A stretch of DNA of 37,799 bases, taken from assembly GCA_029265875.1 (NCBI GenBank), contig JAJUGS010000005.1, positions 1 to 37,799 on the forward strand. Reading direction: 5' to 3'. The DNA is from Prolixibacteraceae bacterium (GTDB lineage Bacteria > Bacteroidota > Bacteroidia > Bacteroidales > Prolixibacteraceae). The stretch's first letter is position 1. Each line of letters begins with the position of its first letter. Shown piece after piece: positions 11,296 through 37,799 of the stretch. The position numbers and the translations under genes are program-made. The notes under the pieces are model-generated. The model was not told where the DNA came from. It did not search any database and worked only from the letters and a program-made list of their open reading frames with translations.

Positions 11296-11337
11296 TCGGC
11301 AACCAGCAGATTAACAAAACGATTGAAGCCGGAAAGC

Positions 11338-18700: not shown

Positions 18701-18770
18701 CGGTATCGATGACAGGGATAAATATCCTACCGTCCGGTCTTATACATTCGGTCTTACTGTTAACTTTTAA
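15711..18770 (+). CDS. SusC/RagA-family TonB-dependent outer-membrane transporter
   Basis: This 1019-aa outer-membrane barrel imports oligosaccharides, powered by TonB and capped by its SusD partner. I choose the ATG giving MKSILSKKTQLLWYFLFLLIAPLSMFAQ, a normal signal peptide; an in-frame ATG 57 bp upstream adds 19 unhelpful residues. A carboxypeptidase-regulatory-like domain (about 30-112, ITGTVYDETGKSIPGVTVMVSG) precedes the VAIGYGTQRKGDVTSAV segment at about residue 112. The TonB plug follows (about 120-235, ending DVLKDASAAAIYGTRGANGVILITT), and the rest is a 22-stranded-type barrel ending in aromatic VNF. It lacks an N-terminal STN domain, so anti-sigma control is not expected; this fits control by the HTCS. 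susD follows 11 bp later. Confidence 0.96.
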   Translation: MKSILSKKTQLLWYFLFLLIAPLSMFAQKRQITGTVYDETGKSIPGVTVMVSGTTQGTATNLDGKYTIEVNSGEVLRFSYIGYKTQEISVNNQSVLNVTLTVEAIGINEVVAIGYGTQRKGDVTSAVASVKSEDFSVGKIGDAAELVKGKIAGLSITKSSGDPNATSSIMLRGITTIKGSVSPLVLVDGIEGSLTTVAPENIESIDVLKDASAAAIYGTRGANGVILITTKSGKRESAAVATYSSYLSFSNWYKTAEFMDTHDVIYGLTNFEYEGYDTDWLKGVTRQSGYAQNHSLSLEGGSQKSSYSANVTYTDEEGIMRYSDNNNLRAQLDFNQYALNDILKFNINVLYSTHKNTNNNNAYVYRQALIRNPSSPVFHEDGAYYEEYNRFQYYNPVAIQNELIGDTRSHSARITGNITLEPIKGWQTNLMLSRRENTSTSENYYTSEYYTLKAKDPADQTRTVPVTRGSAGKSSNNGRSDNLELTSKYNLNLGEHRFSALAGYSYLYNVYDGFNAGNSNFPSESYLYNDLSQGTYLTDEKRRATMGSYKNDNTLIGFFGRVSYGYDNRYNALVSVRHEGSSKFGKNNKWGTFPSVSLGWTISNESFMEDATWLSNLKLRTGYGVTGVIPGDSYRSLVTYTYDAYGKHLSKDGEWTPSLIVGQNPNPDLKWETTSEVNIGLDWAILNSRINGTIDVYSKKTVDLLYDYAVPVPPNMYEWTMANVGEMSNKGIEVMINAIAVKKTDFEWNTTLTLSHNENKLLSLSNDLYQTDNFVETGGVSDPISVPTHAMEVGHRLGDFWGLRSVGVSKDGFVLVEVSDGNGGWVVKEFDTKYNEEKNRQRLGNGLPQVYAGWNNTFRYKGFDLNLVFTGQFGFKILNVQRSFYENNSIAYNKLKTAADLHPAIDASGAPVLDPETGEQLMVKLSNSMQQGVWSDQIENGDFVKLTNATLGYTVPVSGSLKKYIQNLRFYVAGQNLFCITGYSGLDPEVSNYFLAPGIDDRDKYPTVRSYTFGLTVNF

Positions 18771-18781
18771 AAGTGAATGAT

Positions 18782-20553: not shown

Positions 20554-22467
20554 ATGAAAAAAATACAGATAATTATTCTATTGGCGCTGTTTGTGGCAGG
20601 TTTTGTGGGCTGTAAAGACAACATGGATTACAGCAGTCTGCATAATCTGACAGACGAAGAAAAGGCAGAGCTTGCCCGTCAGGATTCAATCGAAGAAGCC
20701 CAGAAAAACAATATCAACGCGAACCTGAAACTGGAATATACAGCTGAAATTACGGTCAGCAAAACATTGTATGATGGTGTTTCGGTACCCATTGAAATTG
20801 ATAAAATTGCCGCTTTGTTTAAAATCTCGGCGGCTGAAGTTCTTGCAGGAATAGCCGGTGAAGCCGGTGCCCCGGAAATTAAACCTTTTGCCATCGACTG
20901 GAGTACCCGTGCTGATGTTGGTTCGGCTACCACCACCAACGCCCCCTGGGGCCATTGGTGGGATGTAAAAGGTGATGTAACCACGTGGGGCGATGCTACC
21001 AAACTGGCCAATACGTTTTGCGAGTTCGACACCGAGTCAGGCTCATTTTATGTTGGCCAATATCCCAACAGGCTTGTGCCAGGCGATACAATTAAGGTTA
21101 TTGAAGCACTGAAATACAACGAATTGCGTGTGGCGGTAATTATTACAATTTTACCGGTTGCACCGGGCCAAATTAACGCGAAAGTGGTGGACACCCAGGA
21201 ATTGACCATGTCTGTCACACCGAGAAGCTCATACGATCCTGATCCGTTGAAATTCAACCTCGATAAGGTTCTCAGCAGCCTGGGGGTTACCTCCATGGAC
21301 GCAGTGAAATTCCTCGGTGTTAACAAAGATGGCACCTATGCACAGGAAGCTGTAACAGGAAAAGGATTCTGGTACGACCTCGAAGGTTTTGTGGGTGCCT
21401 GGGGCGACAACGCCAGTGTTTATACAAATTATGGCGATTTCGAAGCCGACCAGATCAGTATCGGACAATACCCGAACCGTCTGGCTGCCGGTCAAACCTA
21501 CACAATCCAATACGGATTTATGGCCAACAACAAAATTGCCATGCTGAAGATTACCATCAATGTTGTTGGATATCAGGATCCTGAAACACCACCTGCCGGA
21601 ACTCCGGAAGCACTGGTGATTGACGTTTTACTGAGTAAAAAGTATAGCAACGATTATGCAAGTGTTACTTTCGATGTAAAAGAAATTATGCGCAATGCGT
21701 TTAAAATGACCACTTACCAGATTCACCAGGCCATTGCAAAAGGCGATCTGAAACTGTACCAGGGTGCAGTGAGCGAAAAGGCCCCGGCTTACACTGCCGA
21801 CGTTCCCGGGTTCTGGCTCAAACCCGATGGAACTGTTGGCCAGTGGGCTGAAAGTGTGGTGTGGACAAGCATTGGCCATAATGAAACCGAGTTATTCCTG
21901 TTTGGCGGTAACCACCCCGACAACGCAACGCCCGGTACAACCGTTACAACAAAATACATTGCCACCTGCAACGGCGGTTCGGTAACATTTAACATCACTT
22001 TCAATATTGAAAAAGATGATTATGTGGACCCGGAAACCCCGCCAACCGGTGCGCCTGAAGCATTGACAATGGACATTGATTTGTCGAAAACATACAGCAA
22101 CGATTATGCCACTGTAAAGGCTGACGTAAAAGAAACCCTGCGCAATGCATTCAAAATGACCACTTATCAGATCCACAAAGCCATTGAAGCTGGTGAACTG
22201 AAACTGTACCAGGGCGCTGTCAGCGAAACCGCTCCGGCATACACCGCCGATGCCCCGGGTTATTGGCTGAAACCCGACGGGACTGTTGGTAGCTGGGGAC
22301 AAGGTGCTGTTGTTTGGATCAGTCTCGGTCATAGCGAAACCGAATTGTTCCTGTATGGTGGAAACCATCCGACTGATGGCAAAGCCGGCGACAAAGTGAC
22401 TACAACTTACATCGCCACCTGTAACGGCGGTTCTGTAACATTCAAAATTAATTTCACAGTGAAATAG
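20554..22467 (+). CDS. Four-module DUF4859-like lipoprotein, probable surface glycan-binding protein
   Basis: This 637-aa lipoprotein has lipobox VAGFVGC with lipidated Cys20, followed by KDNMD, which resembles the acidic/lysine surface-export signal of Bacteroidota lipoproteins. After a short linker come four copies of one module: about residues 58-205, 208-340, 350-490 and 500-637. Each carries GxW(Y/L)xxxGxVxxWG and, in modules 1 and 2, the exact GQYPNRL; in 3 and 4 this is GGNHP. I recognise the module as DUF4859-like. Modules 3 and 4 are near-identical over long stretches (FKMTTYQIH, LKLYQGAVSE, YIATCNGGSVTF), showing recent duplication. The position right after susD is that of SusE/SusF-type binding proteins, so surface glycan (or glycoprotein) binding is inferred. 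No catalytic motif is seen. Confidence 0.82.
   Translation: MKKIQIIILLALFVAGFVGCKDNMDYSSLHNLTDEEKAELARQDSIEEAQKNNINANLKLEYTAEITVSKTLYDGVSVPIEIDKIAALFKISAAEVLAGIAGEAGAPEIKPFAIDWSTRADVGSATTTNAPWGHWWDVKGDVTTWGDATKLANTFCEFDTESGSFYVGQYPNRLVPGDTIKVIEALKYNELRVAVIITILPVAPGQINAKVVDTQELTMSVTPRSSYDPDPLKFNLDKVLSSLGVTSMDAVKFLGVNKDGTYAQEAVTGKGFWYDLEGFVGAWGDNASVYTNYGDFEADQISIGQYPNRLAAGQTYTIQYGFMANNKIAMLKITINVVGYQDPETPPAGTPEALVIDVLLSKKYSNDYASVTFDVKEIMRNAFKMTTYQIHQAIAKGDLKLYQGAVSEKAPAYTADVPGFWLKPDGTVGQWAESVVWTSIGHNETELFLFGGNHPDNATPGTTVTTKYIATCNGGSVTFNITFNIEKDDYVDPETPPTGAPEALTMDIDLSKTYSNDYATVKADVKETLRNAFKMTTYQIHKAIEAGELKLYQGAVSETAPAYTADAPGYWLKPDGTVGSWGQGAVVWISLGHSETELFLYGGNHPTDGKAGDKVTTTYIATCNGGSVTFKINFTVK
21577..22464 (+). 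repeat. Intragenic tandem duplication, 450-bp period
   Basis: Two direct copies within the DUF4859-like gene start at 21577 and 22027 (residues 342 and 492), each beginning with DPETPP(A/T)G. The period is exactly 450 bp, that is 150 codons. Protein identity is high while many third positions differ, so the duplication is real but not brand new. Confidence 0.88.
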
Positions 22468-22475
22468 TTTTTGCT

Positions 22476-22513
22476 CCGGCATGTCCTGTTTTCAGGATAT
22501 GCCGGATATTTTT
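22476..22513 (+). terminator. Strong Rho-independent terminator after the DUF4859-like gene
   Basis: CCGGCATGTCCTG (22476-22488) pairs with CAGGATATGCCGG (22493-22505) over a TTTT loop, with one G-U pair, followed by ATATTTTTC. It begins 8 bp after the stop. It should end the susC-susD-binding protein transcript, implying a separate promoter for the metallopeptidase gene. Confidence 0.82.
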
Positions 22514-22669
22514 CAAAGTTTCCTTATAAGTTGCTGGTTTCTGTTTGACATTTTTCAAAAAAATTAATTTTTTCAGCGTTGGTAAGATAAATGCATTGGA
22601 AACTGGTTTATGCAGAGAAAGTCAAACACAACAGATAATCAGCAACTTTTTTTACTTCTTTGCAATGTA

Positions 22670-22721
22670 CCGGATCGCGATTTATCGCGATGAGTTTCCT
22701 GCCCGATCGTCAGACGGGCAT
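22670..22721. repeat. Short GC-rich palindromic repeats in the gap before the metallopeptidase gene
   Basis: Two hairpins lie side by side: ATCGCG/CGCGAT around 22675-22691, and TGCCCG (22700-22705) with CGGGCA (22715-22720). They stand out as GC-rich inside an AT-rich gap and resemble the small palindromes dispersed in Bacteroidota intergenic DNA. The remainder of 22514-22793 holds no gene I can support. Confidence 0.5.
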
Positions 22722-22793
22722 CGTGTGAGAATGTGAATAAAAAGACAAAATGCAGAACCACCTTGCAAACAGCAACTTTATTAATTTTTCAAG

Positions 22794-24845
22794 ATGAAAA
22801 AAATTGAACATATCACCCGGCAGTTTCATTATGGAATCAAAGATTCGCGCAAACTGTTTTTTATCCTGAATTTTATAATTGCCTCAACTTTCTGCCTTAC
22901 TGCTTGCGGCAACAGCGACGATATTCCCCAACCCGAAGACCCCGATCCGGTGGATACCACAAAAGTTTCGGATGTGATTATCCTGAAAGAAACTGATATT
23001 CAGGATTACAACAAATTTTACAAACCAAACGATTTTAAAAATATGAACATGCTCCGCAGCGACAGCAAATGGTCGTTTGTCAGGAGTAAACAATCACAAC
23101 ATTTCATCGTTTTCTGGGAACCCGGTTTCGGTATGAACCCGAATGCCGACTCTGTTCCGCAGGCCTTGAGGGTGAATATCGACGACCTGCTGCAAAAAGC
23201 AGAGTCATTTTACGATGTGAATGTCAACAAACTGAAATTTGCAGAGGTGGGAATTGGAAAATCGAACCTCGATAAATATAAAATGCAGATTTACCTGCTT
23301 TATCAAACCGAATGGCTGGCAACCGGCGCGGGCTACGATGATGTAATCGGCGCACTTTGGGTAAACCCCGGCACCTGCAAACCGGTGGGTTCGACCATTG
23401 CTCACGAAATCGGCCACAGTTTTCAATACATGGTGTATGCCGATTTGCTGGCTTACGGCGGCATCAGCAACGATTTCAAACGTGGTTTCCGTTATGGTTT
23501 CGGCGGGAACGGAGGGAATGGGTTCTGGGAACAAACCGCCCAATGGCAGTCATTCCAGTCATATCCTTCCGAAGCATTTACTTCTTACAATTTTAACGTT
23601 CACATGGAAAACTACCACCGCCATTTCGGACATGAATGGCACCGGTATGCCAGTTACTGGCTCCATTATTACTGGGCCCAAAAGCATGGTATCGATATAA
23701 TCGGGAAATTATGGCGCGAGGCTGTTAGTCCGGAAGACCCGCTTCAGACTTATATGCGAATAAACGGGTTAACGGTTGACCAGTTAAATGAAGAAATTTA
23801 TGACGCAGCCGCCCATTTTGTTACATGGGACCTGGATGCGCTCCGCACAGCAGGAAAAGATTATATCGGAAAATTCACCCACAAATTTTTTCAGTTGGAA
23901 GATGGCAGTTACCAGGTGGCCTACAGTCGTTGCCCCGGAACAACAGGTTATAACGTCATTCCGTTAAATGTTCCCGCTGCAGGAACCGTGGTTTCCACAA
24001 AATTTACGGCACTGGCACCTGGCTCTGCACTGGCACCCGGCGACCCGGGCCAATATTCCGAAGATGGTGCAACGCTTACAAAATCAACTTACAACAGCGG
24101 TTCATTAACCCGCTCAGGCTGGCGATATGGTTATGTGGCGCTTTTAAATAACGGGCAACGTATTTATGGCGAAATGAACCGGAAAACTTCTGCCGACGTG
24201 GAATTCACAGTTCCATCGGGTTGCGAAAAGCTTTGGTTTGTGGTTACCGGCGCTCCTTCAACTTATACCGCTCATGCGTGGGATGAAAAGGAAAGTAACG
24301 ACGACCAGTGGCCCTACAAAGTAAAATTCACCAACACCGATTTACTGGGCAATATCACCATCGACCCGAATGCCAAACCGCAAAATCTCACACTTACCTA
24401 CAACCTGTCGTTTGCCGCCGATGCCGCCGGATACACGGGTGCCACCGTGAACCTGAACAGTAACGGCGATATCAGCAAAGTGGCACAGGCACTTTCGATG
24501 CAACCATCTGCTATTGTGGCAGCTTTGCTGGCAGCAAAAGCAACGCCCGTGGAAGGTAAAATTGCCTTTGCGGCTGTTGAACCCGGTGACGTGCTCAACT
24601 ACAACACCACCGCAAACGGACATGGATTCTGGTTCGATAGCACCGGAAAAGTGATTGCCTGGGGAAGCAGTAACGACAGCAAAATTTTCGCGGAGTTTGC
24701 ACCGGGAAATTTTGAATTTACAGTTGGTCAATACCCCGGCAAAAGCAAAGCCGGTGACAAATACACGGTAAAGGAAGCCTTTGTTTATACCAAAGGTGGT
24801 AAGCAATACCAGGTAACTTTTGTATTTAACGTCACAATTAAGTAG
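22794..24845 (+). CDS. Putative HExxH zinc metallopeptidase lipoprotein (DUF6055-like) with C-terminal DUF4859-like module
   Basis: This 683-aa lipoprotein has a long n-region, then LFFILNFIIASTFCLTAC with lipidated Cys38 and an acidic surface-type tail (GNSDD...PEDPDPVD). Residues about 75-330 form a domain with SQHFIVFWEPGFG, LLQKAESFYD and the zinc motif HEIGHSFQY (His204-Glu205-His208). I associate this domain with DUF6055. ENYHRHFGHEWHRYASYWLHYYW further on may supply another ligand. Residues about 390-510 look like a beta-rich domain, and about 530-683 form a DUF4859-like module (HGFWFDSTGKVIAWGSS, TVGQYPGKSKAGDKYT) like those in the upstream binding protein. Sharing this module suggests both act on the same target. 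Peptidase activity is inferred from HExxH only. It likely has its own promoter. Confidence 0.78.
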   Translation: MKKIEHITRQFHYGIKDSRKLFFILNFIIASTFCLTACGNSDDIPQPEDPDPVDTTKVSDVIILKETDIQDYNKFYKPNDFKNMNMLRSDSKWSFVRSKQSQHFIVFWEPGFGMNPNADSVPQALRVNIDDLLQKAESFYDVNVNKLKFAEVGIGKSNLDKYKMQIYLLYQTEWLATGAGYDDVIGALWVNPGTCKPVGSTIAHEIGHSFQYMVYADLLAYGGISNDFKRGFRYGFGGNGGNGFWEQTAQWQSFQSYPSEAFTSYNFNVHMENYHRHFGHEWHRYASYWLHYYWAQKHGIDIIGKLWREAVSPEDPLQTYMRINGLTVDQLNEEIYDAAAHFVTWDLDALRTAGKDYIGKFTHKFFQLEDGSYQVAYSRCPGTTGYNVIPLNVPAAGTVVSTKFTALAPGSALAPGDPGQYSEDGATLTKSTYNSGSLTRSGWRYGYVALLNNGQRIYGEMNRKTSADVEFTVPSGCEKLWFVVTGAPSTYTAHAWDEKESNDDQWPYKVKFTNTDLLGNITIDPNAKPQNLTLTYNLSFAADAAGYTGATVNLNSNGDISKVAQALSMQPSAIVAALLAAKATPVEGKIAFAAVEPGDVLNYNTTANGHGFWFDSTGKVIAWGSSNDSKIFAEFAPGNFEFTVGQYPGKSKAGDKYTVKEAFVYTKGGKQYQVTFVFNVTIK

Positions 24846-24952
24846 GCACTGATGCAGATTGGTTTAGTAGAAAACGATAAAGTTTTTGCTACAAAGTGGC
24901 AATTTAGGAATAACCCTGTACGAAGTGCGGGGTCAGATAGCACAAGTTACCT

Positions 24953-25061
24953 GAACCCTGAAAGGGTTCAACATACTGTCATTGAACCCCTTCAGGGTTC
25001 TTCATCAGATTTTTTTCCTCCGGTTGCACCGGTGGTTATTCAAATTCAAGCCTTGCAGGCT
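24953..25061. repeat. Composite palindromic repeat between metallopeptidase and cotH genes
   Basis: Three hairpins lie in a row. GAACCCTGAAAGGGTTCAA (24953-24971) pairs with 24982-25000 at 18 of 19 positions, and each arm is itself a palindrome. A T-run follows at 25011-25017. Next is CCGGTTGCACCGG around 25020-25032, then AGCCT/AGGCT (25049-25061) followed by TTTT. This is the look of a REP-type intergenic element; the last hairpin with its T tract could end the upstream transcript. The gap (24846-25101) has no convincing gene. Confidence 0.7.
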
Positions 25062-25101
25062 TTTTAAAACATATTTTTAAACTTATCCGATTTTTCAGAG
25101 G

Positions 25102-26388
25102 ATGAAACAGAAATTTCTGCCACCTTTTTTGTTGCTCAGTATGCTTTTTTTCAGCCGGTGCGCTGTAAACGAAGTGCCTGATGATGAAGGGGAGCCTGAT
25201 GTTTCAACGCCTGTTGAAACTTACCAGGTGGCAAAAATTGCCATTAAAACCGAAAATTCTGCTTCAATTACTTCAAAAGATACTTACATCAAATGCGCTG
25301 TAACTTTAGAATCAGACAAAAACGAGTGGAATTATTCGGGTACCGGAACGATTAAAGGACGTGGAAATTCATCCTGGCTCTGGTACCCGAAGAAACCATT
25401 CAGACTGAAACTGGATGAAAAAGACAATCTGCTGGGTTTAAAAGCCGACAGGGATTGGGTTTTGCTGGCCGATTACCGCGACCCCACCCACCTGATGAAT
25501 ACTTATGTTTTTACAGTTGGGCAGGGTTTGGGCATCCCATTCCCTAATCATTCGCGCTATATTGAAGTTACCCTCAATAACAATTACATCGGAATGTATA
25601 TGCTGACCGAACAGGTGGAACAGGGCGAAAACCGCGTGGCAATCGATAAAACTGAGGGAATTTTGCTTTCACTCGACGTTGACGACGGCCCTGAATTGTC
25701 GCCTGGGGCAAAGGATAATTTCTGGTCATCGGTTTACAAAATGCCGGTTTGTGTGAAAAGTCCCGAAATTATTTACAGTACGCAATTATCAGGTATTAAA
25801 AGCGATTTTGCGCAATTAGAGACTGCTATAAAGGGTGCGGATTATGCTGCCGTTGCCAAACTTTTCGATATACCGGTTTTTATCAATTTCCTGATTATTC
25901 AGGAACTGGTGTACAACGTGGAAGTGGCTGCACCGCGTAGCATGTATCTGCACAAAAACAAAGGCGGAAAATGGACAATGGGCCCGCTGTGGGATTTTGA
26001 TGCCGGTTTTGATTTCGACTGGGGAACCATGTACACAGGCCACAACTATTTCAAAAGCTACAAGGAACTGGTTTTGGGAACTTCGCCGCTCAATCATTCA
26101 GGCGGGTACAACGTGCCATCTTTTTTTACCGATTTATTTCGCAACAAACAATTTGTGGCCGAATACAAAGCCCGCTGGCAGGTGATCAAAGAAAAACTGA
26201 TGACGGAATACTGGGACACCTCTCAACTCTATGCCAACGGATTTGCAGAAGCTGCGCAGCGCGATGCCAAACGCTGGCCCATCGACAAGAACAATGCTGC
26301 AGAAATTCAGAAAATGAAACTGTGGCTGACCTCCAGAATCAGCTATCTTTCAACGGTTATCGAAAATTATCCGGCTGGAACCAAATAA
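25102..26388 (+). CDS. CotH-kinase-family lipoprotein
   Basis: This 428-aa lipoprotein (SMLFFSRC, Cys20) has an acidic tail (VNEVPDDEGEPD) expected to favour surface display. CotH proteins are atypical protein-kinase-like enzymes first known from Bacillus spore coats. Family signatures are KGRGNSSWLWYPKKPFRLKL (residues 85-104), the following DWVLLADYRDPTHLMN, VTLNNNYIGMYMLTEQVE (about 156-173), and the metal-binding WDFDAGFDFD (297-306). All expected motif regions are present, so it may be active. Its stop codon overlaps the first ATG of the GH43 gene (TAATG), linking it tightly to the enzyme genes. A role in modifying the glycoprotein substrate or a surface partner is possible but unproven. 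Confidence 0.9.
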   Translation: MKQKFLPPFLLLSMLFFSRCAVNEVPDDEGEPDVSTPVETYQVAKIAIKTENSASITSKDTYIKCAVTLESDKNEWNYSGTGTIKGRGNSSWLWYPKKPFRLKLDEKDNLLGLKADRDWVLLADYRDPTHLMNTYVFTVGQGLGIPFPNHSRYIEVTLNNNYIGMYMLTEQVEQGENRVAIDKTEGILLSLDVDDGPELSPGAKDNFWSSVYKMPVCVKSPEIIYSTQLSGIKSDFAQLETAIKGADYAAVAKLFDIPVFINFLIIQELVYNVEVAAPRSMYLHKNKGGKWTMGPLWDFDAGFDFDWGTMYTGHNYFKSYKELVLGTSPLNHSGGYNVPSFFTDLFRNKQFVAEYKARWQVIKEKLMTEYWDTSQLYANGFAEAAQRDAKRWPIDKNNAAEIQKMKLWLTSRISYLSTVIENYPAGTK

Positions 26389-28715
26389 TGATGTGTATGA
26401 ATAAACTAAAAATAAATATAAATGATTATCCGATATTCTACCCCCAACCCCTGCCTGTTCGGCAGACAGGCCTTGAAGGGGGCTGTAACCCTGTAAAAAC
26501 AGGCAACATCTGCTCATTTCACAGCCCCAAAGTCCCCTTTAGGGTCCCGATTTTTCGGTATAGGGGTGAATCTGGAACGAATACGGTTTTTCATAAGAAA
26601 ACATTTCTTCTACTGATTGTTTCGGCTTTTGTTTTTGCAGCGAAAGCCCAGCCAACCATTCAGGGCTTTTCAACCGGAAACCCGCTTTTGCCAGGCTATT
26701 TTGCCGACCCCACTATTAAGAAATTTGGTGACTGGTACTACATTTATGCCACAGCCGACGGCGTAAAATTAGCGTCGGGCGAACCCTCGGTTTGGGTAAG
26801 CCGCGACCTGAAAAACTGGTCGAATTACGAACTCGACCTGCAGGTTCCCGAAGGATTGACCAACTGCTGGGCCCCCGATGTGGTTCAGGGAAAAGATGGC
26901 CGCTACTACTATTTTATGGGTAATTGCCAGTTTGGCTGCAACATTTACGGCTATGTTTCCGACTCGCCAATGGGGCCTTTCAAACCGATTAATGAAGGGA
27001 AACCCGTCATTCCGGTGGGCACTGCCAAAGAACACCTGCCCGCGCTCGATGCCCAGTTTCTGGTGGATGACGACGGTTCGGTGTATTCGTGGTTCGGTAC
27101 CTGGTGCACCTCGTTTAAAGGAATGGGTTTTGTAAAACTGAACCCCGAAAATTTAAGCGAAATCATCAACTCCCGTTTTATCCCGATTGCCGAAATTCCG
27201 CTGGCTTTCGAAGCTGCCTACCCGCTGAAATACAATGGCAAATATTACCTGATGTACTCTGCCGGTGATTGCCGTTTGAGTTCGTACGCTGTTCACTACT
27301 CGGTGGCCGACAAACCGGAAGGGCCTTACACGCCGGGCAAAAACAACCCGGTTTTGGCAACCAACACCGACGGGACCATCGACGGCCCGGGGCATCATTC
27401 CATTTTGCAGGAAGGCGATAAATTTTACATGGTGTATCACCGGCACGACAATCCGCACAGCACGGGCGGCGAATTCCGCCAGGTCTGTATCGATGAAATG
27501 AAGTTTGATGCCGAAGGAAATATCCTGAAAGTGGAAGCCGGTCACGCTGGAGTGCAACCACTGAAAACTAAAAATCAGCCTAAAAATCTTGCATTGGGGG
27601 CAAAAGCCGAAGCCAGTTCGTTTTACCATCTTGTCAGCAGAAAAACGGTGTACAGCCAGGCTGATTACAATTACAGCTACCTGCCTGCCAACGCTGTTGA
27701 CGACAACAACGGAACACTCTGGCGGGCTGCATCAGGCGCACTGCCGCAAAACCTGACCCTCGATTTGGGCAAATCAACCAAAATCCGCCGCGTGGCAACC
27801 GAATTTGAATACCCCTCCTACTACTATCAATACAAAATCGAAGTTTCAAAAGACAACAAAAACTGGGTTGTTTACAGCGATAAAACCAACAACCGCACAA
27901 GTGGCTGCCCGATGATTGACGACAACGAAATGACAGGCCGCTACCTGCGCCTCACCATCACCGGCACCCAAAACGCCGGAATGTTAGCGGCTGTGTGGAA
28001 TATCAGGGTTTATGACAAACGCATTGATTTGCCGCCATTTGCCAACCGCGAATCAAATGTCGGCCCGGGAACGGCAAGTACAGGCAGTTTGCTGGCTGAT
28101 TTCAATGCCGAAAAAATAAATGATTCGGCAATTCCGAACACCGGGACACTGGGCGGCCATTTCGAAGTAGTTGGCGAATTGAAAACAAAAACCGTGGAAG
28201 GTATCAAAGCCTTTGAATTGGATGGTTCGAATTATCTGAAACTTTCGGTACCGGCTCCTGCCAGCCTCGATTGGAACTCGGCTTTTACGGCTTCGGTGTG
28301 GGTTTTCAATCCTGAAGTTGCCGAAGGTGAATGCCTGCTGGCCTGGAACTCCCGCGAAAATATGTTGCAATCGTCGTACGCGGCACTGATGTACGGAACC
28401 GCCAAATTTGGTGCAGTTGCGCATGGCGACTGGGCTGTTGACCTGCCTTACAGCCCGCTGCCCGAAAAAGGAAAATGGCACCACATTGCCGTTACTTTCG
28501 ACGGGCTGCTTGAAAATGTTTATGTTGACGGGGAGCTGAACAACCAGCAACCCATCTATCTTTTTGTAAAAGCTGCCGATATTTTGATTGGCGCTTCCGG
28601 CGAACCCAATGAAAACCTGACAGGGTTTATTTCGAGGGCCCAGCTATTCGATAAAGCACTGAGTCCGGGCGAAATAAAAAGCCTGATGCAACAATCAAAA
28701 CCAGATAAGAAATAA
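26388..28715 (+). CDS. GH43 glycosidase with F5/8C and LamG-like modules
   Basis: The secreted enzyme is 775 aa from the first ATG; two further ATGs follow within 10 bp. GH43 enzymes are inverting five-bladed propellers acting mostly on alpha-L-arabinofuranosides or beta-xylosides. Catalytic candidates are Asp107 (YFADPTI), Asp221 (DAQFLVDDDGS) and Glu275 (FEAAYPLKYNGKYYLMYSAG), with HHSILQEGDKFYMVYHRHD after them. A discoidin-type F5/8C module (about 400-545, LDLGKSTKIRRV, RYLRLTITG) and a LamG/concanavalin-like module (about 560-775, GKWHHIAVTFDG) follow. Oddly, the signal peptide core (TFLLLIVSAFVFAAKAQ) starts only near residue 72, after a stretch encoded by a palindromic repeat (26440-26567). 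The true start is therefore uncertain; see the repeat entry. Confidence 0.9.
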   Translation: MMCMNKLKININDYPIFYPQPLPVRQTGLEGGCNPVKTGNICSFHSPKVPFRVPIFRYRGESGTNTVFHKKTFLLLIVSAFVFAAKAQPTIQGFSTGNPLLPGYFADPTIKKFGDWYYIYATADGVKLASGEPSVWVSRDLKNWSNYELDLQVPEGLTNCWAPDVVQGKDGRYYYFMGNCQFGCNIYGYVSDSPMGPFKPINEGKPVIPVGTAKEHLPALDAQFLVDDDGSVYSWFGTWCTSFKGMGFVKLNPENLSEIINSRFIPIAEIPLAFEAAYPLKYNGKYYLMYSAGDCRLSSYAVHYSVADKPEGPYTPGKNNPVLATNTDGTIDGPGHHSILQEGDKFYMVYHRHDNPHSTGGEFRQVCIDEMKFDAEGNILKVEAGHAGVQPLKTKNQPKNLALGAKAEASSFYHLVSRKTVYSQADYNYSYLPANAVDDNNGTLWRAASGALPQNLTLDLGKSTKIRRVATEFEYPSYYYQYKIEVSKDNKNWVVYSDKTNNRTSGCPMIDDNEMTGRYLRLTITGTQNAGMLAAVWNIRVYDKRIDLPPFANRESNVGPGTASTGSLLADFNAEKINDSAIPNTGTLGGHFEVVGELKTKTVEGIKAFELDGSNYLKLSVPAPASLDWNSAFTASVWVFNPEVAEGECLLAWNSRENMLQSSYAALMYGTAKFGAVAHGDWAVDLPYSPLPEKGKWHHIAVTFDGLLENVYVDGELNNQQPIYLFVKAADILIGASGEPNENLTGFISRAQLFDKALSPGEIKSLMQQSKPDKK
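26440..26567. repeat. Palindromic intergenic-type repeat inside the GH43 reading frame
   Basis: Segments ACCCCCAACCCC (26440-26451), GCCTGT/ACAGGC (26453-26458 and 26466-26471), GGGGCT/AGCCCC (26479-26484 and 26523-26528), CCCTTTAGGG and a final TAGGGGT (26561-26567) build a nested inverted repeat. This type is familiar from non-coding DNA of Bacteroidota. The GH43 frame stays open through it, encoding about residues 18-60, a proline/glycine-rich stretch with no sensible role before a signal peptide. A GTG at 26566-26568 would encode MNLERIRFFIRK and then join the signal peptide if one A were added to the A4 run at 26598-26601. Confidence 0.7.
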
Positions 28716-28745
28716 ACTACAGATAAAAACAAAATCACTACCATA

Positions 28746-31163: not shown

Positions 31164-31197
31164 TTTTCAACACGGGAAAAGACAAGAAAGAACTGAC

Positions 31198-33603
31198 ATG
31201 AAGAAACAAACCATTATCGCACTTTTTTTTGCCGGAATATTGGCGACTGCCTGCCAGACCAAAACAGAGGAAGCGACTGCCCCACTCACGCCCGTGCCTT
31301 TTACAGCGGTTCATTTGCACGACGGGTTCTGGGCGCCAAAAATTGAAACCAACCGCACCGTTTCCATTCCGTCGGCTTTTGGCAAATGCGAGGAAACCGG
31401 CCGCATGGACAACTTTGCACTGGCTGGCGGACTGATAAAATGCGAACACAAAGGCGATTTTCCGTTCGATGATACCGATGTTTACAAAGTACTCGAAGGT
31501 GCTTCGTATACGCTTGCTGTTCAATACGATGAAAAACTCGATGCTTATCTCGACAGTGTTATTAACCTGATTGCAGCAGGGCAGGAAGACGACGGCTATA
31601 TTTATACCAGCCTCACCAACCAATGCGACAGGCTGAAAGGCTGGTACGGCAATGGCCGCTGGGACAGGCTGAACAGTCACGAACTCTACAATTGCGGCCA
31701 TTTGTACGAAGCTGCGGTGGCACATTACCAGGCCACCGGAAAACGCAGGTTGCTCGATGTTGCCATCAAAAATGCCAACCTCATCAACGAAGTTTTCGGG
31801 CCGGGTGAAAACCAGAAACATGTTCCGTCGGGCCACCCGATTGTGGAGATGGCGCTGGTGAAACTTTACCGGGTTACCAACGACGAAAAATACCTGAAAC
31901 TGGCCCGTTATTTTATCGACGAAACCGGCAAGGGGACCGACGGACATAAACTGAGCGAATACAGTCAGGACCACAAACCCATTGCTGAACAGGATGAAGC
32001 GGTGGGACACGCCGTTCGCCTTGGATATTTGTACAGTGGTGTTACCGACGTGGCTTCGCTGTTGCACGACCAGGCACTGATGGAAGCTACAAAACGGGTT
32101 TGGGAAAACGTGGTTTCGAAAAAACTGTACATCACCGGTGGTATTGGTTCGCGGGCACAGGGCGAAGGTTTTGGCCCCAATTACGAACTGCCCAACATGA
32201 CCGGCTACTGCGAAACCTGCGCGGCAATTTCGAATGTTTACTGGAACTACCGCTTGTTTTTAAACGAACACGATGCCAAATATTACGATGTGCTCGAACG
32301 TGCTTTGTACAATGGTGTGATTTCGGGTGTTTCGCTGAGCGGCGACAAATTTTTCTACGACAATCCGCTCGAGTCGGTGCACAACCACGACCGCGCTCCG
32401 TGGTTTGGCTGCGCCTGCTGCCCGGGAAACATCACCCGTTTTATGGCTTCAGTACCGGGTTATGTTTATACAACCGATGAAAACTCAATTTATGTGAACC
32501 TGTTTGCTGCCGGCGATGCAAAAATACAACTGGAAACCGACACCATTGCCGTGAGCCAGCAAACTCGCTACCCGTGGGAAGGCCGGGTGGACATTAAAAT
32601 CGAAAAAAGTAAATCCACAAAGTTTAACCTGAAAGTACGTGTTCCGGGATGGGCACAAAACCAGCCGGTTCCTTCAGATTTGTACCATTTTACCGACCAG
32701 AACTCAGAAAAAATCGGTCTGAAAATTAACGGCAAAAACGAAAAATTCAGCATAGAAAAAGGTTATATCAGCCTGAATAAAAAATGGAAGAAAGGCGATG
32801 TGGTTTCGCTGAATTTCCCGATGCCGGTGCGCAAAATTGCAGCAAACGAAAATGTTACCAATAACCACGGTAAACTGGCCTACCAGCGTGGCCCGCTTGT
32901 TTATTGTTTCGAGGACAAAGACAACAACAACGGTTTTATGTTCGATAATTTTGCCGGCGTTGAAGAGAATGTGGCGGCTGAGTTTGACGGACAATTGCTG
33001 GGCGGTGTGGTGAAACTGAAACTGAAAGGCAGCAAAGTTGTTTTGCAAAACGACAAAAAAGTAGCCGAACCAGCCGAACTTATTGCTATCCCTTATTATG
33101 CATGGAACAACCGTGGAAAAGCAAACATGCTGGTTTGGCTGCCCGAAAACGAGACAACTACAGTTGCAAAACCGGCTCAGTCAGTTACCGATTCGGCTGA
33201 AATAAAAGCTTCAACCGATTACTACACAGGAATTAACGATGGGTTTGACCCGAAAAATTCGGGCGATACCGACAAGTCGTATTTCTACTGGTGGCAAAAA
33301 AAAGGCTCCGATGAATGGATTGAATACAATTTCAAAACACCTGTAAATATTTCACAGGCTTCGGTTTACTGGCTGAACATGGACCACTACGATGGGAATT
33401 ACCGGGTGCCCGAAAGCTGGACGCTGGAGATAAAAGACAGTAAAGGAAACTGGAAACCTGTGGAAACTGCCGACGCCTTTTCAACTGCCATCGACCAGTA
33501 CAATACAATGAAATTCAAACCGATAACCACAACTTCCATCAGGCTGAATGCCAAACTGCAGAAAGACGCTTCGGGTGGAATTCTTGAATGGAAATTGAAA
33601 TAA
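31198..33603 (+). CDS. GH127 beta-L-arabinofuranosidase family enzyme, lipoprotein form
   Basis: The protein is 801 aa. I start at the ATG giving MKKQTIIALFFAGILATAC with lipidated Cys19; an upstream in-frame start would place 23 hydrophilic residues before it. It is a paralogue of the preceding gene with the same order of domains and the same C-terminal jelly-roll-like unit (WIEYNFKTPVNISQASVYW). The zinc/catalytic set is intact: Glu339 and Cys341 in YCETCAAISN, and Cys407-Cys408 in WFGCACCPGN. As a lipoprotein it should be membrane-held, perhaps on the surface or periplasmic face, in contrast to its soluble neighbour. Sequence divergence outside the core suggests different substrates or chain lengths rather than redundancy. 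It is probably co-transcribed with the upstream GH43 and GH127 genes. Confidence 0.93.
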   Translation: MKKQTIIALFFAGILATACQTKTEEATAPLTPVPFTAVHLHDGFWAPKIETNRTVSIPSAFGKCEETGRMDNFALAGGLIKCEHKGDFPFDDTDVYKVLEGASYTLAVQYDEKLDAYLDSVINLIAAGQEDDGYIYTSLTNQCDRLKGWYGNGRWDRLNSHELYNCGHLYEAAVAHYQATGKRRLLDVAIKNANLINEVFGPGENQKHVPSGHPIVEMALVKLYRVTNDEKYLKLARYFIDETGKGTDGHKLSEYSQDHKPIAEQDEAVGHAVRLGYLYSGVTDVASLLHDQALMEATKRVWENVVSKKLYITGGIGSRAQGEGFGPNYELPNMTGYCETCAAISNVYWNYRLFLNEHDAKYYDVLERALYNGVISGVSLSGDKFFYDNPLESVHNHDRAPWFGCACCPGNITRFMASVPGYVYTTDENSIYVNLFAAGDAKIQLETDTIAVSQQTRYPWEGRVDIKIEKSKSTKFNLKVRVPGWAQNQPVPSDLYHFTDQNSEKIGLKINGKNEKFSIEKGYISLNKKWKKGDVVSLNFPMPVRKIAANENVTNNHGKLAYQRGPLVYCFEDKDNNNGFMFDNFAGVEENVAAEFDGQLLGGVVKLKLKGSKVVLQNDKKVAEPAELIAIPYYAWNNRGKANMLVWLPENETTTVAKPAQSVTDSAEIKASTDYYTGINDGFDPKNSGDTDKSYFYWWQKKGSDEWIEYNFKTPVNISQASVYWLNMDHYDGNYRVPESWTLEIKDSKGNWKPVETADAFSTAIDQYNTMKFKPITTTSIRLNAKLQKDASGGILEWKLK

Positions 33604-33662
33604 CAAACTGTTTCAATACAAAGGAAATCAGCAACTAAAAGAAAATATATATTTTTCGCGAC

Positions 33663-33670
33663 TATTTTTG
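33663..33670 (+). promoter_or_regulatory. Possible -7 element upstream of the GH146-like gene
   Basis: TATTTTTG matches the Bacteroidota -7 consensus TAnnTTTG exactly and lies 65 bp before the start at 33736, in a 132-bp gap. No TTTG is found at the expected -33 distance, so this may be chance in AT-rich DNA. If real, it would give the GH146-like gene partly independent expression. Confidence 0.25.
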
Positions 33671-33735
33671 TTTTCGAAACGATGACTAATAACTTGTAAC
33701 ACTTCAGAATAAACTAAAATTGAAAATTCATATCG

Positions 33736-36090
33736 ATGAAACGACTTGCTAAACCAACAATTCTGGCTCTTATTTTTACTTTATTTCTGGGAGCCTGCAC
33801 CCCAAAAAACGAAACCATTACAACAGGTGGCCCCGAAGTAGTGGCATTTAAAGCGCTGCCTTTTCAACTGAAAGATGTGAAACTGCTTGACGGGCCGTTT
33901 AAACATGCCACTGAATTGAATATTCAGTCGCTGCTGAATTACGAACCCGACCGTTTGTTATCGAAATTCAGAAGTGAAGCCGGGCTCCAACCCAAAGCCC
34001 AACCATACGGCGGCTGGGAAGCCATGACGATTGCCGGCCACAGCCTCGGTCATTACCTGAGTGCCTGTGCCCTGATGTACCAGACTACTGGTGACCAGCG
34101 TTTTCTCGACCGTGTCAATTATATTGTTGCTGAACTCGATACCTGCCAGATGGCCGACAGTACCGGCTACATAGGAGCTTTCCCGAATGGGAAAAGTATT
34201 TTGGAAGATGAAGTGGCTAAAGGAAACATCCGCGCGCAGGGTTTCGACCTGAATGGAATCTGGGTTCCGTATTACACCCAACACAAAGTGATGGCCGGTT
34301 TGTTTGAAGCCTACTATTTGTGTGGCAACCAGAAAGCACTCGAAATCAACAGAAAATTTGCCGACTGGCTTTACACCATTGTTTCGCCGCTGAACGACGA
34401 GCAGATTCAGAAAATGCTGCATTGCGAACATGGCGGTATCAACGAATCGTTGGCCGAATTGTATGCTTTGACCGGCGATAAAAAATACCTCGACATGTCG
34501 CACATTTTTCACCACAAAGCTATTCTTGAACCGCTTTCGCAGGGAACCGATATTTTACCCGGGAAACATGCCAATACGCAAATTCCAAAGCTGGTCGGAC
34601 TCGCCCGCCGGTACGAACTCACTGCCGACAGCACCGACCGCAAAACCGCCGAGTTTTTCTGGAACCGCGTGGTCAACCACCATTCGTATGTAACCGGCGG
34701 ACACTGCGACCACGAATACTTTGGCCCGGCAGACTCGCTGCGCAACAGGCTGAGCAACGAAACCACCGAAACCTGCAATGTGTATAACATGCTCAAACTC
34801 TCGGAACACCTTTTTGAGTGGGAAGCAAAACCCGAAGTGGCCGATTTTTACGAACGTGCACTTTTCAACCACATTCTTTCGTCGCAACACCCCGAAACAG
34901 GGCATGTAATTTACAACCTCTCGCTCGAAATGGGTGGTTGTAAAGAGTACCAGAACCCCGAATGGTTTACCTGCTGCATAGGTTCGGGCATGGAAAACCA
35001 TTCGAAATACGCCAAAAACATTTATTACCATTCAAACAATGAGTTGTACCTGTTTCAGTTTATTGCCTCGGAATTAAACTGGGAAGCCAAAGGACTGAAA
35101 GTCGTTCAGAACACACAGTTTCCCGATGAACAAAAAACAAAACTCGAATTATTATGTGAAAATCCGGTTCCGCTGACATTGAAAATCCGCTACCCGCACT
35201 GGGCCGAAAACGGCATGGAAATTAAAGTAAACGGCAAAAGCCAAAAAGTAAAATCAAAACCCGGCTGTTTTGTTTCCATTGACAGGTACTGGAAAAACAA
35301 CGATGTGGTTGAAATCAGTTTCCCGTTTAGTGTCAGAATTGAAACCATGCCCGACGACAGCAACCGGATTGCACTGTTTTATGGCCCTGTTGTTCTGGCC
35401 GGAGACCTCGGCCCTGAACACGATTCAACGTCGGTTGACCCGATGTATGTCCCGGTTTTTCTGCCTGCCGATAACAATCCGGCCAACTGGCTGCAACCGG
35501 TTGAAGGCGAAACAAACACTTTTAGAACAGTAAATATCGGCCAGCCCAGAGACATTGTGCTGAAACCATTTTACAAAACCCACAACCGCAACTACTCGGT
35601 TTATTTCGACAGGTTTACACCCGAAAGCTGGGAAAAATTCAAAGCAAATTACCAGGCTGAATTGGAACGGAAAAAACAGATTAAAGCTGCCACCATCGAC
35701 TTTTTTCAGCCCGGTGAAATGCAGCCCGAACGCAACCATAATTTCAAAGATTTGAAAAGCTGGGTGGGCGAAAACAAACACCGCAAATTCAGGGAAATCG
35801 ACCGCGGAGGCTGGTTTAGCTGCGAGATGAAAACCGGCGGCGTTCCTGTAAACCTGGTGGTTGAATACTGGGGTGGTTACACAGGCTCAAAAACTTTCGA
35901 TATTCTGGTAAACGATATAAAAATTGCCACCGAAAATATTTCGAACAAAAAACCGGGCGAATTTGTGGATGTTACCTACGAAATTCCTGCTGAACTGCTT
36001 TCAGGCAAAAAACAGATAACCGTGAAGTTTGTGCCACACGACGGCCATCGCGGTGGGCCGGTTTTCGGGGTAAGAACGGTGAAGAAATAG
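33736..36090 (+). CDS. GH146-like beta-L-arabinofuranosidase lipoprotein
   Basis: The 784-aa lipoprotein (LFLGAC, Cys21) belongs to the same DUF1680 superfamily as the two GH127 genes but to a distinct branch. Its marks are VKLLDGPFKHATELN, GGWEAMTIAGHSLGHYLSAC, VPYYTQHKVMAGLFEAY and HGGINESLAELYALTG, which I associate with GH146 (for example BT0349 of Bacteroides thetaiotaomicron, active on beta-L-arabinofuranose). The zinc/cysteine site is conserved: Glu345 and Cys347 in ETTETCNVYNML, and Cys413-Cys414 in WFTCCIGSGMENH. The end (about residues 660-784) is a separate beta domain (LVVEYWGGYTGSKTFDILVND), probably the accessory domain common in this group. It completes a set of three related arabinofuranosidases in tandem. 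Confidence 0.9.
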   Translation: MKRLAKPTILALIFTLFLGACTPKNETITTGGPEVVAFKALPFQLKDVKLLDGPFKHATELNIQSLLNYEPDRLLSKFRSEAGLQPKAQPYGGWEAMTIAGHSLGHYLSACALMYQTTGDQRFLDRVNYIVAELDTCQMADSTGYIGAFPNGKSILEDEVAKGNIRAQGFDLNGIWVPYYTQHKVMAGLFEAYYLCGNQKALEINRKFADWLYTIVSPLNDEQIQKMLHCEHGGINESLAELYALTGDKKYLDMSHIFHHKAILEPLSQGTDILPGKHANTQIPKLVGLARRYELTADSTDRKTAEFFWNRVVNHHSYVTGGHCDHEYFGPADSLRNRLSNETTETCNVYNMLKLSEHLFEWEAKPEVADFYERALFNHILSSQHPETGHVIYNLSLEMGGCKEYQNPEWFTCCIGSGMENHSKYAKNIYYHSNNELYLFQFIASELNWEAKGLKVVQNTQFPDEQKTKLELLCENPVPLTLKIRYPHWAENGMEIKVNGKSQKVKSKPGCFVSIDRYWKNNDVVEISFPFSVRIETMPDDSNRIALFYGPVVLAGDLGPEHDSTSVDPMYVPVFLPADNNPANWLQPVEGETNTFRTVNIGQPRDIVLKPFYKTHNRNYSVYFDRFTPESWEKFKANYQAELERKKQIKAATIDFFQPGEMQPERNHNFKDLKSWVGENKHRKFREIDRGGWFSCEMKTGGVPVNLVVEYWGGYTGSKTFDILVNDIKIATENISNKKPGEFVDVTYEIPAELLSGKKQITVKFVPHDGHRGGPVFGVRTVKK

Positions 36091-36099
36091 CTTTTTTTT

Positions 36100-36153
36100 G
36101 GGTGTCGCGGATTGTATCCGCGATTTTTTCGGCGGTTACAAACCGCCGCACCC
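36100..36153. repeat. REP-like element folding as a three-way junction
   Basis: GGGTG (36100-36104) pairs with CACCC (36149-36153) and encloses two perfect 8-bp hairpins: TCGCGGAT/ATCCGCGA (36105-36112, 36116-36123) and CGGCGGTT/AACCGCCG (36130-36137, 36141-36148), joined by TTTTTT (36124-36129). The first hairpin plus the T tract would work as a terminator for the GH146-like gene, which ends 9 bp before the element. Confidence 0.75.
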
Positions 36154-36393
36154 CAGAAAACGGGACTTGTAAAAGTCTGTTATTTTTTACGTTTTTATTT
36201 TACATTCCCAAAGCAGAAATAACAGAAAAAGCAAAGTAAAATCAGAAACTTGGTTTATGGTAGTTGGGCTTTTAATACAACGCCTTAAAATCATCCCTTT
36301 TCAGCTAATTTTTCAACGATGTTCCCATAATATAGGTCAAGGCTGCGATAAAATTTATAACCTTCAAATCGGTATATCTGAAGGAAAAATCTC

Positions 36394-36428
36394 AAAACCA
36401 GTGTTAGTCAACTTTACACTGGTTTTTT
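36394..36428 (+). terminator. Terminator-like hairpin in the gap before the oxidoreductase gene
   Basis: AAAACCAGTGT (36394-36404) pairs perfectly with ACACTGGTTTT (36416-36426) over an 11-nt loop, continuing into TT. It lies 240 bp beyond the REP-like element and 119 bp before the next gene, so it does not end a recognised gene. It could close a small RNA made from about 36230-36390 or be a relic. I see no gene in 36154-36546. Confidence 0.5.
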
Positions 36429-36546
36429 ATTGCTGGTTTTCATAATTCAGAACAGACTTTACACTGATTAAAGTTTGCTGCTTCGAAATCATGTGGCTTT
36501 GATTTTAGTAAATTGCAGACCAATTAAACCAACAAGATTAAAACTT

Positions 36547-37799
36547 ATGAATCCATCAAGAAGAAATTTTTTAAGGAATTCGGCTGTGGCTGTTTCGGCT
36601 GCAACAATAATTCCGTCGCAGGTGTGGTCATCGCCGGTGGCCGCGTCCGACAAGGTAAATGTGGCATTAATCGGTTGCCGCAACATGGGTTTTGGCATTC
36701 TGAAACACCACCTCGACACAGGCATGGTAAACTGTGTGGCTTTGTGTGATGTGGATGAAAACGTGCTGAAAGAAAAATCGGAGACCGTAAAAAAAGATTA
36801 CAACCAGTCGCCGGAATTGATAAAAGATTACCGCAAAGTATTGGAAAGAAATGATGTGGATGCCGTAATTATTGGCACGCCCGACCACTGGCACTGCCTC
36901 ATTACGGTGGATGCCTGCTCGGCGGGAAAAGATGTGTATGTTGAAAAACCGATGGCGAACACCATTGCCGAGTGCAATATCATGGTAAAAGCTCAAAAAC
37001 GTTACAACCGCATTGTTCAGGTTGGCCAGCAGCAGCGCGACGGCAAAATTTTCAAAGACTGCATGGGCTTTATCAAAAATGGCGAAATCGGTACACTGCG
37101 AAAAGTAAATATCTGGGCCAATTTTAATTACGGGTTGGGAACTGTTCCTGTGCCCGATGGCCCTGTGCCGGCTGGGGTTGATTATGATTTCTGGCTCGGC
37201 CCCGCACCCAAACGACCGTTCAATCAGGCGCGTTTTCACGGAAGCTGGCGCCATTATTGGGATTACGGCGGCGGGTTGATGAGCGACTGGGGGGTTCACC
37301 TCGTTGACATGGCATTGTGGGCCGGCGATATTGTGGAAGGCCCGACTTTGGTAATGACTTTTGCCAACAACTTCTCGAAACAAAAAATGGCACGCGAAAC
37401 TTTCGACACGATGAATATCGTTTTCCCGAAAAAAGATTTTGTGATTAATTACGACCTCACCGCCGGAATTCAACAGGGGCCTTTTAATTCAGCTTACGGA
37501 TTACAGTTTATCGGCGAAAAGGGAACATTGGTGGCCGACCGCAACAAATATCATTTGTACCCTGAATGGGATGGAGAAAAGAAAGCACCAAAAACCGCCG
37601 AAGTAAGCTGGGACAAAGGACAGGAATCGCACCGCGAACATGTCGATAATTTCCTGGCCTGCATCAAATCGCGCGAAACACCCTCGTGTCCGCCTGAAAT
37701 TGGCAGGGCAGCCGCAGTGCATGTGCACATTGCCAATATTTCGGCACGGCTGGGACAGCCGCTGCTGGAATGGGACGACAAAAACAACCGCTTTACCAA
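36547..37799 (+). CDS. Tat-exported Gfo/Idh/MocA-family oxidoreductase (5' part)
   Basis: The frame is open from the ATG to the window end (417 codons), so the 3' end is missing. The N-terminus MNPSRRNFLRNSAVAVSAATII is a twin-arginine signal (SRRNFLR), meaning export in folded form with its cofactor. A Rossmann domain follows (KVNVALIGCRNMGFG, VALCDVDENVL, AVIIGTPDHWHCL, and the family's VEKPMANTIAECN), then the C-terminal domain (FHGSWRHYWDYGGGLMSDWGVHLVDMALW). EKP carries the usual lysine; the family acts on sugars or inositols with NAD(P), and some exported members are NAD-dependent glycosidases (GH109). The nucleotide loop GCRNMG is a less common version of the GxGxxG pattern. It may finish off released sugars or belong to the next operon, as a 456-bp gap precedes it. 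Confidence 0.92.
   Translation, partial: MNPSRRNFLRNSAVAVSAATIIPSQVWSSPVAASDKVNVALIGCRNMGFGILKHHLDTGMVNCVALCDVDENVLKEKSETVKKDYNQSPELIKDYRKVLERNDVDAVIIGTPDHWHCLITVDACSAGKDVYVEKPMANTIAECNIMVKAQKRYNRIVQVGQQQRDGKIFKDCMGFIKNGEIGTLRKVNIWANFNYGLGTVPVPDGPVPAGVDYDFWLGPAPKRPFNQARFHGSWRHYWDYGGGLMSDWGVHLVDMALWAGDIVEGPTLVMTFANNFSKQKMARETFDTMNIVFPKKDFVINYDLTAGIQQGPFNSAYGLQFIGEKGTLVADRNKYHLYPEWDGEKKAPKTAEVSWDKGQESHREHVDNFLACIKSRETPSCPPEIGRAAAVHVHIANISARLGQPLLEWDDKNNRFT

Follow-up and report, generated by a model that had tools for sequence, protein, structure and literature searches.

The stretch analysed here (the window), 37,799 nucleotides long, makes up an entire contig in the draft genome of a Prolixibacteraceae bacterium (G000; 4.26 Mb, 94% complete, 420 contigs), and it carries a polysaccharide utilisation locus (PUL) that probably serves the utilisation of extensin-type hydroxyproline-rich glycoprotein (HRGP). 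The PUL spans positions 11323-36090 with all genes on the + strand, in the order hybrid two-component system (HTCS), SusC, SusD, a lipoprotein with four DUF4859 domains (P0001), a DUF6055-DUF4859 peptidase (P0002), CotH, and glycoside hydrolases (GH) of families GH43, GH127 (GH127a), GH127 (GH127b) and GH146. These genes were read from the list of open reading frames (ORFs), from Pfam on 20 of the 38 listed ORFs (the remainder were short, overlapping or antisense frames) and from NCBIfam on 10. An adjacent SusC/SusD pair together with a regulator and carbohydrate-active enzymes on a single strand is the make-up of a PUL. A sequence-only reading of this DNA had named the same gene types in the same order and strand, and each was found; its range of 20554-37799 stood for the genes listed in it but began too late, omitting HTCS, SusC and SusD (11323-20470). 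That reading had also proposed protein-linked arabinan of extensin type as the target. We favour the same target because P0002 is remotely related to the extensin-degrading peptidase Svx, because related loci carry dipeptidyl peptidase IV (DPP-IV), alpha-galactosidase and arabinose genes, and because hydroxyproline catabolism is linked with the peptidase both by position and by co-occurrence. HRGPs are a cross-linked part of plant walls and some algal walls, and it is little known which bacteria eat them.

P0002 was matched by DUF6055 (PF19527) at 7.3e-169 and by a single C-terminal DUF4859 at 2.1e-26, and P0001 contained four DUF4859 copies (PF16151, 4.6e-57). It had been supposed from the letters alone that the peptidase shares a module with the neighbouring binding protein, and since Pfam found DUF4859 in both lipoproteins, the shared module is real. 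In an alignment of 69 peptidases (P0002, 63 from the named loci of the survey below and five short ones), the HExxH motif and a distal Glu (E246 in P0002) were invariant in all 69. The NCBIfam model of Svx/AvrXca (NF040510) was likewise matched by all 69, with a best E-value of 5.3e-25 and 3.9e-21 for P0002. Judged by this profile P0002 is a remote homologue of Svx and no equivalog, because its score of 75.3 bits is far under the cut-off of 625. Svx of Pectobacterium is described as a gluzincin peptidase with the motif HEXXHX(8,28)E (PMC9266454). In a report from 2026, Svx degraded a carrot extensin fraction, and not mucin or concanavalin A; after removal of its C-terminal domain extensin degradation was lost and azocasein cleavage was kept (PMC13164431). 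By analogy, the DUF4859 of P0002 may take the role of that C-terminal domain.

The AlphaFold 2 model of P0002 built on the 69-row alignment had a mean predicted local distance difference test score (pLDDT) of 90.8, and the mean pLDDT with nine rows 69-75% identical to P0002 was 38.9. Foldseek comparison of the model with the PDB gave weak matches (2 at E<=0.001 among 903 at E<=10; aminopeptidase N, 5dll, at 2.7e-3), therefore we assign no fold. Searched by sequence, P0002 had no believable PDB relative, its four matches lying at E 0.14-0.5.

Genes for 4-hydroxyproline (Hyp) catabolism stand near the peptidase in several genomes. In a Mangrovibacterium genome (G049) an operon of the trans-4-hydroxyproline type lies about 21 kb from the peptidase and comprises genes for a DapA-family protein, an aldehyde dehydrogenase, a 4-Hyp epimerase (NF010578; its 579 bits exceed the cut-off of 376) and a D-amino-acid dehydrogenase; the locus also includes a 1-pyrroline-5-carboxylate (P5C) dehydrogenase and an Xaa-Pro-peptidase-like protein. 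Only the P5C dehydrogenase and the epimerase pass their cut-offs, and the other genes were assigned by family and by their arrangement. The epimerase is about 4 kb from a peptidase 48-55% identical to P0002 in Galbibacter and in two Salegentibacter. A sample of 392 genomes spread over Bacteroidota had DUF6055 above 200 bits in 13, and the epimerase exceeded its cut-off in 7 of these 13 versus 73 of the other 379 (p 0.007). In 5 of the 7 the epimerase and DUF6055 are about 12-26 kb apart, and all five linked clusters hold the Hyp operon, DPP-IV, GH146 with a LamG domain, DUF5695 and GH43. By Pfam, one cluster (G121) adds GH36, GH42, M24, DUF885 and an amino-acid permease, and another (G322) adds GH97, M1 and DUF885.

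Co-occurrence was counted in 101 close relatives including the window genome. Pro_racemase, the Pfam family of the epimerase, exceeded 400 bits in 12 genomes and DUF6055 in 15, which cover all 12. These 12 comprise 8 of the 10 genomes that have the long peptidase and 4 of the 5 that have the short type only, and 0 of the 86 others. The association (12/15 vs 0/86, Fisher p 4e-13; 10/12 vs 0/25, p 2e-7, within the genus of the window; 8/10 vs 4/91, p 1e-7, for the long type alone) is uncorrected for phylogeny, and the 400-bit lines were chosen after the lists had been seen. With Pfam's own cut-off Pro_racemase was present in 12/15 vs 8/86 (p 4e-8). Seven of the 12 genomes were inspected (L082-L088); each had all four genes of the operon, and the 20 kb around it held no labelled PUL enzyme.

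The neighbourhood of the peptidase is conserved. The long DUF6055 protein was found in 9 of the 100 other close relatives (G005, G008, G009, G013, G014, G020, G024, G034 and G049; G005 and G020 belong to the genus of the window genome). HTCS, SusC, SusD and the DUF4859 protein precede it in eight of them (all but G013), and CotH follows it in six (not in G013, G024 and G008). Further downstream come varying sets of DPP-IV-type peptidases, DUF5695, a type IX secretion/fn3 protein, a small HExxH protein, M61, GH146 with LamG, and GH43; ten of these downstream proteins, from five genomes, were annotated and the others were labelled by likeness. Genes for L-arabinose use are next in several relatives (araA/araB annotated in G014, others recognised by their start sequence, and two Sinomicrobium by blastp), and M24 Xaa-Pro-type peptidases also occur in the loci.

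In Bacteroidales the core claim does not extend to short DUF6055 proteins (about 430-500 aa, about 31-35% identical), since most of their regions contain no GH127/146; in G092 a weak GH127 (22%) lies near one. A large divergent DUF6055 protein (24%) directly adjoins GH146 (67%) in G060. In G008 and G034 two short DUF6055 proteins adjoin the long-DUF6055 PUL, with SusC and HTCS further on, which suggests a second peptidase-bearing locus. Another contig of the window genome (L183, G000:C108, 5575-8710) has a PUL-type DPP-IV (67%) and a small HExxH protein (68%) side by side after a GH26 gene.

The sequence-only reading had called for a search of the same gene set in other Bacteroidota, and the core was indeed found in relatives. 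In the GTDB-species collection a scan found 536 relatives of the peptidase. The best 80 were surveyed, and each gene was labelled after the protein of the window or of a relative that it matched best in blastp. The hosts are of Bacteroidales, Flavobacteria, Cytophaga, Chitinophaga and Sphingobacteria type, including the gut species Phocaeicola vulgatus and P. plebeius. In P. vulgatus ATCC 8482 the locus falls within 1,495,388-1,517,295 of NC_009614.1. Among the 80 loci, SusC was present in 64, SusD in 44, GH127/146 in 42, GH43 in 28, the DUF4859 protein in 25, DPP-IV in 18, CotH in 14, DUF5695 in 14 and the 4-Hyp epimerase in 3. The association of GH127/146 with the peptidase is not by chance, because 40 of the 70 loci of at least 15 kb carry one versus about 0.026 expected per 22 kb each, a rate taken from the copy number of 6.6 in ten host genomes.

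Pfam was also run on 72 of the 82 unlabelled ORFs in loci with GH127/146, and 25 of the 72 families found are considered here, the other 47 having at most two members each. It recognised DUF4859 in 12, SusD in 7, GH27 alpha-galactosidase in 6 and further GH43 in 6. A relative of the GH27 protein occurs in 8 of the 80 loci, and in 7 of these it is at least 62% identical or the query itself. The serine of extensin carries alpha-galactose, as stated in the Svx report (PMC13164431), so the alpha-galactosidases fit an extensin target and the fucosidases of the same flanks do not. All 17 examples of the small uncharacterised protein of related loci contain HExxH (e.g. L089 19631-20467, L167 12116-14839), and in five Bacteroides/Phocaeicola-type loci the protein lies within a frame of 906-909 aa; by this motif it is a candidate second metallopeptidase of the system.

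Several points weigh against the extensin-type reading, besides the low Svx score and the thresholds chosen afterwards. Within the DNA examined per locus, 38 of the 80 surveyed loci have no GH127/146, and flanking ORFs include GH95 and alpha-L-fucosidase (two each), which are unexpected for extensin. The Glu of P0002 lies 37 residues beyond HEIGH and thus exceeds the spacing of the Svx motif. No left-handed beta-helix (LbH, acyltransferase-like) domain was found in P0002: Pfam recognised DUF4859 in the C-terminal part and no hexapeptide repeat, and no such helix was among the 50 Foldseek matches shown. Weaker Pro_racemase matches were found in 11 other relatives, and 4 of the 12 genomes with a strong match (G010, G011, G031 and G092) carry only the short peptidase. 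The five linkages of the phylum sample come from one genus, with a divergent DUF6055 (22-34% identical to P0002). The window genome itself, a 94% complete draft, gave 0 matches for the 4-Hyp epimerase. Since both it and G009 carry the PUL with no Pro_racemase match, Hyp use is not universal in the system. The nearest structures of the glycosidases, treated below, also point elsewhere.

Features of the window, with the evidence for each
Feature	Position	Strand	Evidence
HTCS, presumed regulator	11323..15360	+	Pfam: Reg_prop, Y_Y_Y, HisKA, HATPase, receiver, AraC HTH
SusC-like TonB-dependent transporter	15654..18770	+	Pfam
SusD-like protein; GTG as listed start, in-frame ATG three codons later	18773..20470	+	Pfam, translation
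P0001, surface-binding-protein-like lipoprotein, four DUF4859 domains, lipobox Cys20	20554..22467	+	Pfam, translation, lipobox scan
P0002, predicted DUF6055 metallopeptidase with C-terminal DUF4859, HEIGH 204-208, E246, lipobox Cys38, remote Svx homologue	22794..24845	+	Pfam, NCBIfam, AlphaFold 2 model
CotH-family lipoprotein, lipobox Cys20	25102..26388	+	Pfam, lipobox scan
GH43 with F5/8-type-C and LamG domains, candidate alpha-L-arabinofuranosidase, start uncertain	26322..28715	+	Pfam, NCBIfam, PDB, DNA
GH127a, signal peptidase I (SPI)-like signal (by eye)	28746..31163	+	Pfam; PDB, nearest chain 6ex6, 1079 bits
GH127b, lipoprotein, in-frame start 31198 more likely	31129..33603	+	Pfam, lipobox; PDB, nearest chain 6ex6, 674 bits
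GH146-type enzyme, lipoprotein, C-terminal DUF6805	33736..36090	+	Pfam, lipobox; PDB, nearest chain 5opj, 508 bits
Gfo/Idh/MocA oxidoreductase, twin-arginine (Tat)-type signal, truncated by contig end	36475..37799	+	Pfam, NCBIfam

The lipobox scan marked the DUF4859 protein, the peptidase, CotH, GH127b and GH146 as lipoprotein-like, and SPI-like stretches were read by eye in GH127a and GH43. No ATG, GTG or TTG stands just before the signal-peptide-like stretch of the GH43 frame, and a dispersed repeat of about 170 bp lies at 26425-26600 between CotH and GH43, with two further near-full copies in the genome at 78-82% identity; for these reasons the GH43 start is uncertain. A sequence search of the PDB at E 0.01 found no relative of CotH, and no role can be supported for it. 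The Gfo/Idh/MocA gene was matched in 1 of 22 related genome regions (33%) and 0 of 80 named loci, and its membership in the PUL is doubtful.

Both GH127 proteins have the catalytic, middle and C-terminal domains by Pfam and the zinc ligand pattern Glu/Cys/Cys/Cys. The E-x-C ... CC residues, located by motif and not by structural alignment, are E342/C344/C410-C411 in P0005, E362/C364/C430-C431 in P0006 and E345/C347 with C413-C414 in P0007; such residues bind Zn in characterised members (PMC10850190). The last enzyme had been read as GH146-like from the letters, and this was borne out: it keeps the Zn motif and is closer to 5opj and 8k7x than to GH127 structures. We take 5opj and 8k7x to be GH146. 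GH43 matched arabinanase models far below cut-off, and no activity model was above cut-off. The assignment of the GH43, GH127 and GH146 proteins as putative arabinofuranosidases is by family. From the glycosidases alone, pectic arabinan, arabinogalactan-protein (AGP) and extensin are all possible substrates; it is the evidence from outside (Svx likeness, neighbourhoods and co-occurrence) that points to HRGP.

Unlikely in our view, yet the strongest of the rivals, is a locus for AGP (type II arabinogalactan), in which beta-L-arabinofuranose (Araf) caps would be trimmed and the peptidase would cut the Hyp-rich AGP backbone. GH127a is very close to 6ex6 (aligned over 628 residues, 1079 bits), presumably BT3674 of an arabinogalactan PUL; AGP breakdown would likewise release Hyp, and the fucosidases flanking a few relatives and the GH42 of one flavobacterial cluster would fit. 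This reading is set back by the presence of one GH43 only, by the lack of GH16, GH30 and GH35 in the window ORFs that Pfam scanned, and by Svx, the nearest characterised peptidase, which acts on arabinosylated extensin, AGP not being among the substrates in the part of the report available (PMC13164431).

The sequence-only reading had held pectic arabinan and rhamnogalacturonan-II (RG-II) in reserve, and both are kept here as low-ranked rivals. A locus for pectic arabinan or rhamnogalacturonan-I side chains, with an incidental peptidase, is quite improbable, though 5opj, the structure nearest to GH146, is presumably BT0349 of a pectic PUL, GH43 weakly matches arabinanase models, and arabinose genes occur in relatives. 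The contig also starts with a truncated GH53 gene (endo-beta-1,4-galactanase family, window 2-886), which is upstream of the PUL and separated from it by 10 kb that hold unrelated genes. A polysaccharide lyase or GH28 was seen neither in the window ORFs scanned nor among the 25 Pfam families, out of 72, considered for the flanking ORFs, and a pectic target leaves the DPP-IV-type peptidases, the HExxH proteins and Hyp catabolism unexplained. An RG-II locus in which both GH127 would be aceric acid hydrolases is hardly credible: that model (NF049879) tops NCBIfam for both, but was rejected on scores of 485.6 and 481.9, about half of the cut-off of 950, both proteins are nearer to 6ex6 than to 5mqo (which we take to be BT1003), and no other RG-II enzyme family was recognised among the window ORFs scanned.

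DUF5695 (PF18951, about 900 aa, e.g. L035 16864-19572) appears to alternate with GH127a. Among 45 loci with GH127, GH146 or DUF5695, a close GH127a orthologue (at least 65%) is present in 18 and DUF5695 in 13, never together (p 4e-4, with thresholds set after the labels were seen and with related loci that reach about 10 kb each way). A distant GH127a (51%) and GH127b do co-occur with DUF5695 (L114, L094 and L096). No DUF5695 match was found in the window genome, which has GH127a, in a search whose positive controls were silent too. GH121/HypBA2 was considered for DUF5695 and rejected; DUF5695 had no PDB relative by sequence and no NCBIfam match. Its distribution suggests, as a lead, that DUF5695 may be a glycosidase which carries out the step of GH127a.

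If the PUL is directed at extensin-type glycoprotein, the DUF4859x4 lipoprotein and SusC/SusD would hold the arabinosylated protein at the cell surface, where the DUF6055-DUF4859 lipoprotein would cleave the protein backbone with the arabinosides as guide. The GH127b and GH146 lipoproteins, with exported GH43 and GH127a, would strip the capping arabinose, which is alpha-linked, and the Araf-Araf and Araf-Hyp units in beta linkage, and HTCS would detect the products. In relatives, prolyl-type peptidases would degrade the peptides, and arabinose genes, in some with a 4-Hyp operon, would consume the products. An algal HRGP as target is compatible with the marine-sounding names of hosts.

A wider proposal, to which we give about even chances, is that a dedicated extensin system exists in Bacteroidota, with Phocaeicola vulgatus ATCC 8482 and P. 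plebeius among its hosts, in which the surface peptidase reads glycosylation through DUF4859, a new module for the binding of Hyp-arabinosides, the place of the GH127a orthologue is taken by DUF5695 as a so far unrecognised glycosidase of beta-arabinosides, and some lineages extend to Hyp catabolism and so eat both glycan and protein. PULs are read as glycan systems; this one, if the target is as proposed, would serve a glycoprotein and bring its own protease. DUF6055 and DUF4859, and perhaps DUF5695, would thereby gain a function, and the Svx-type extensin protease would be extended from virulence to nutrition. Phocaeicola vulgatus ATCC 8482, Mangrovibacterium marinum DSM 28823 and Maribellus sediminis Y2-1-60 are strains that allow a direct test. 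In the open-licence literature we found no paper on an extensin PUL and none on DUF4859; subscription papers may exist.

Four known systems can be compared, each as far as the parts of the sources available describe it. The HypAA/HypBA2/HypBA1 system of Bifidobacterium longum also uses GH43 and GH127 for Hyp-linked beta-L-arabino-oligosaccharides (PMC7263609); the window differs in having SusCD/HTCS, GH146, a peptidase and a binding protein with DUF4859. The marks of a bifidobacterial HRGP locus did not appear: in the window ORFs scanned, Pfam and NCBIfam recognised neither the catalytic part of GH121 nor an ABC importer, apart from a weak match of GH127a to the HypBA2 model (3.5e-5) that is confined to the C-terminal domain. 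The arabinogalactan PUL BT3674-87 and the arabinan PUL BT0348-69 of B. thetaiotaomicron share the PUL logic and related GH127/GH146 types, but have other assigned substrates, and no peptidase/DUF4859 pair is mentioned in the portion seen (PMC3243724). For Latescibacteria, degradation of extensin/HRGP was predicted with GH127 taken as extensin-directed, and the portion seen mentions no peptidase-PUL coupling or Hyp-operon linkage (PMC4454575). Svx and, by prediction, P0002 are exported peptidases with HExxH plus Glu and a domain C-terminal to the catalytic part, but P0002 is a PUL lipoprotein with DUF4859 where Svx has LbH and with a Glu spacing of 37 (PMC13164431, PMC9266454, PMC10815107). Svx is a plant virulence factor, whereas the role of P0002 would be nutritional.

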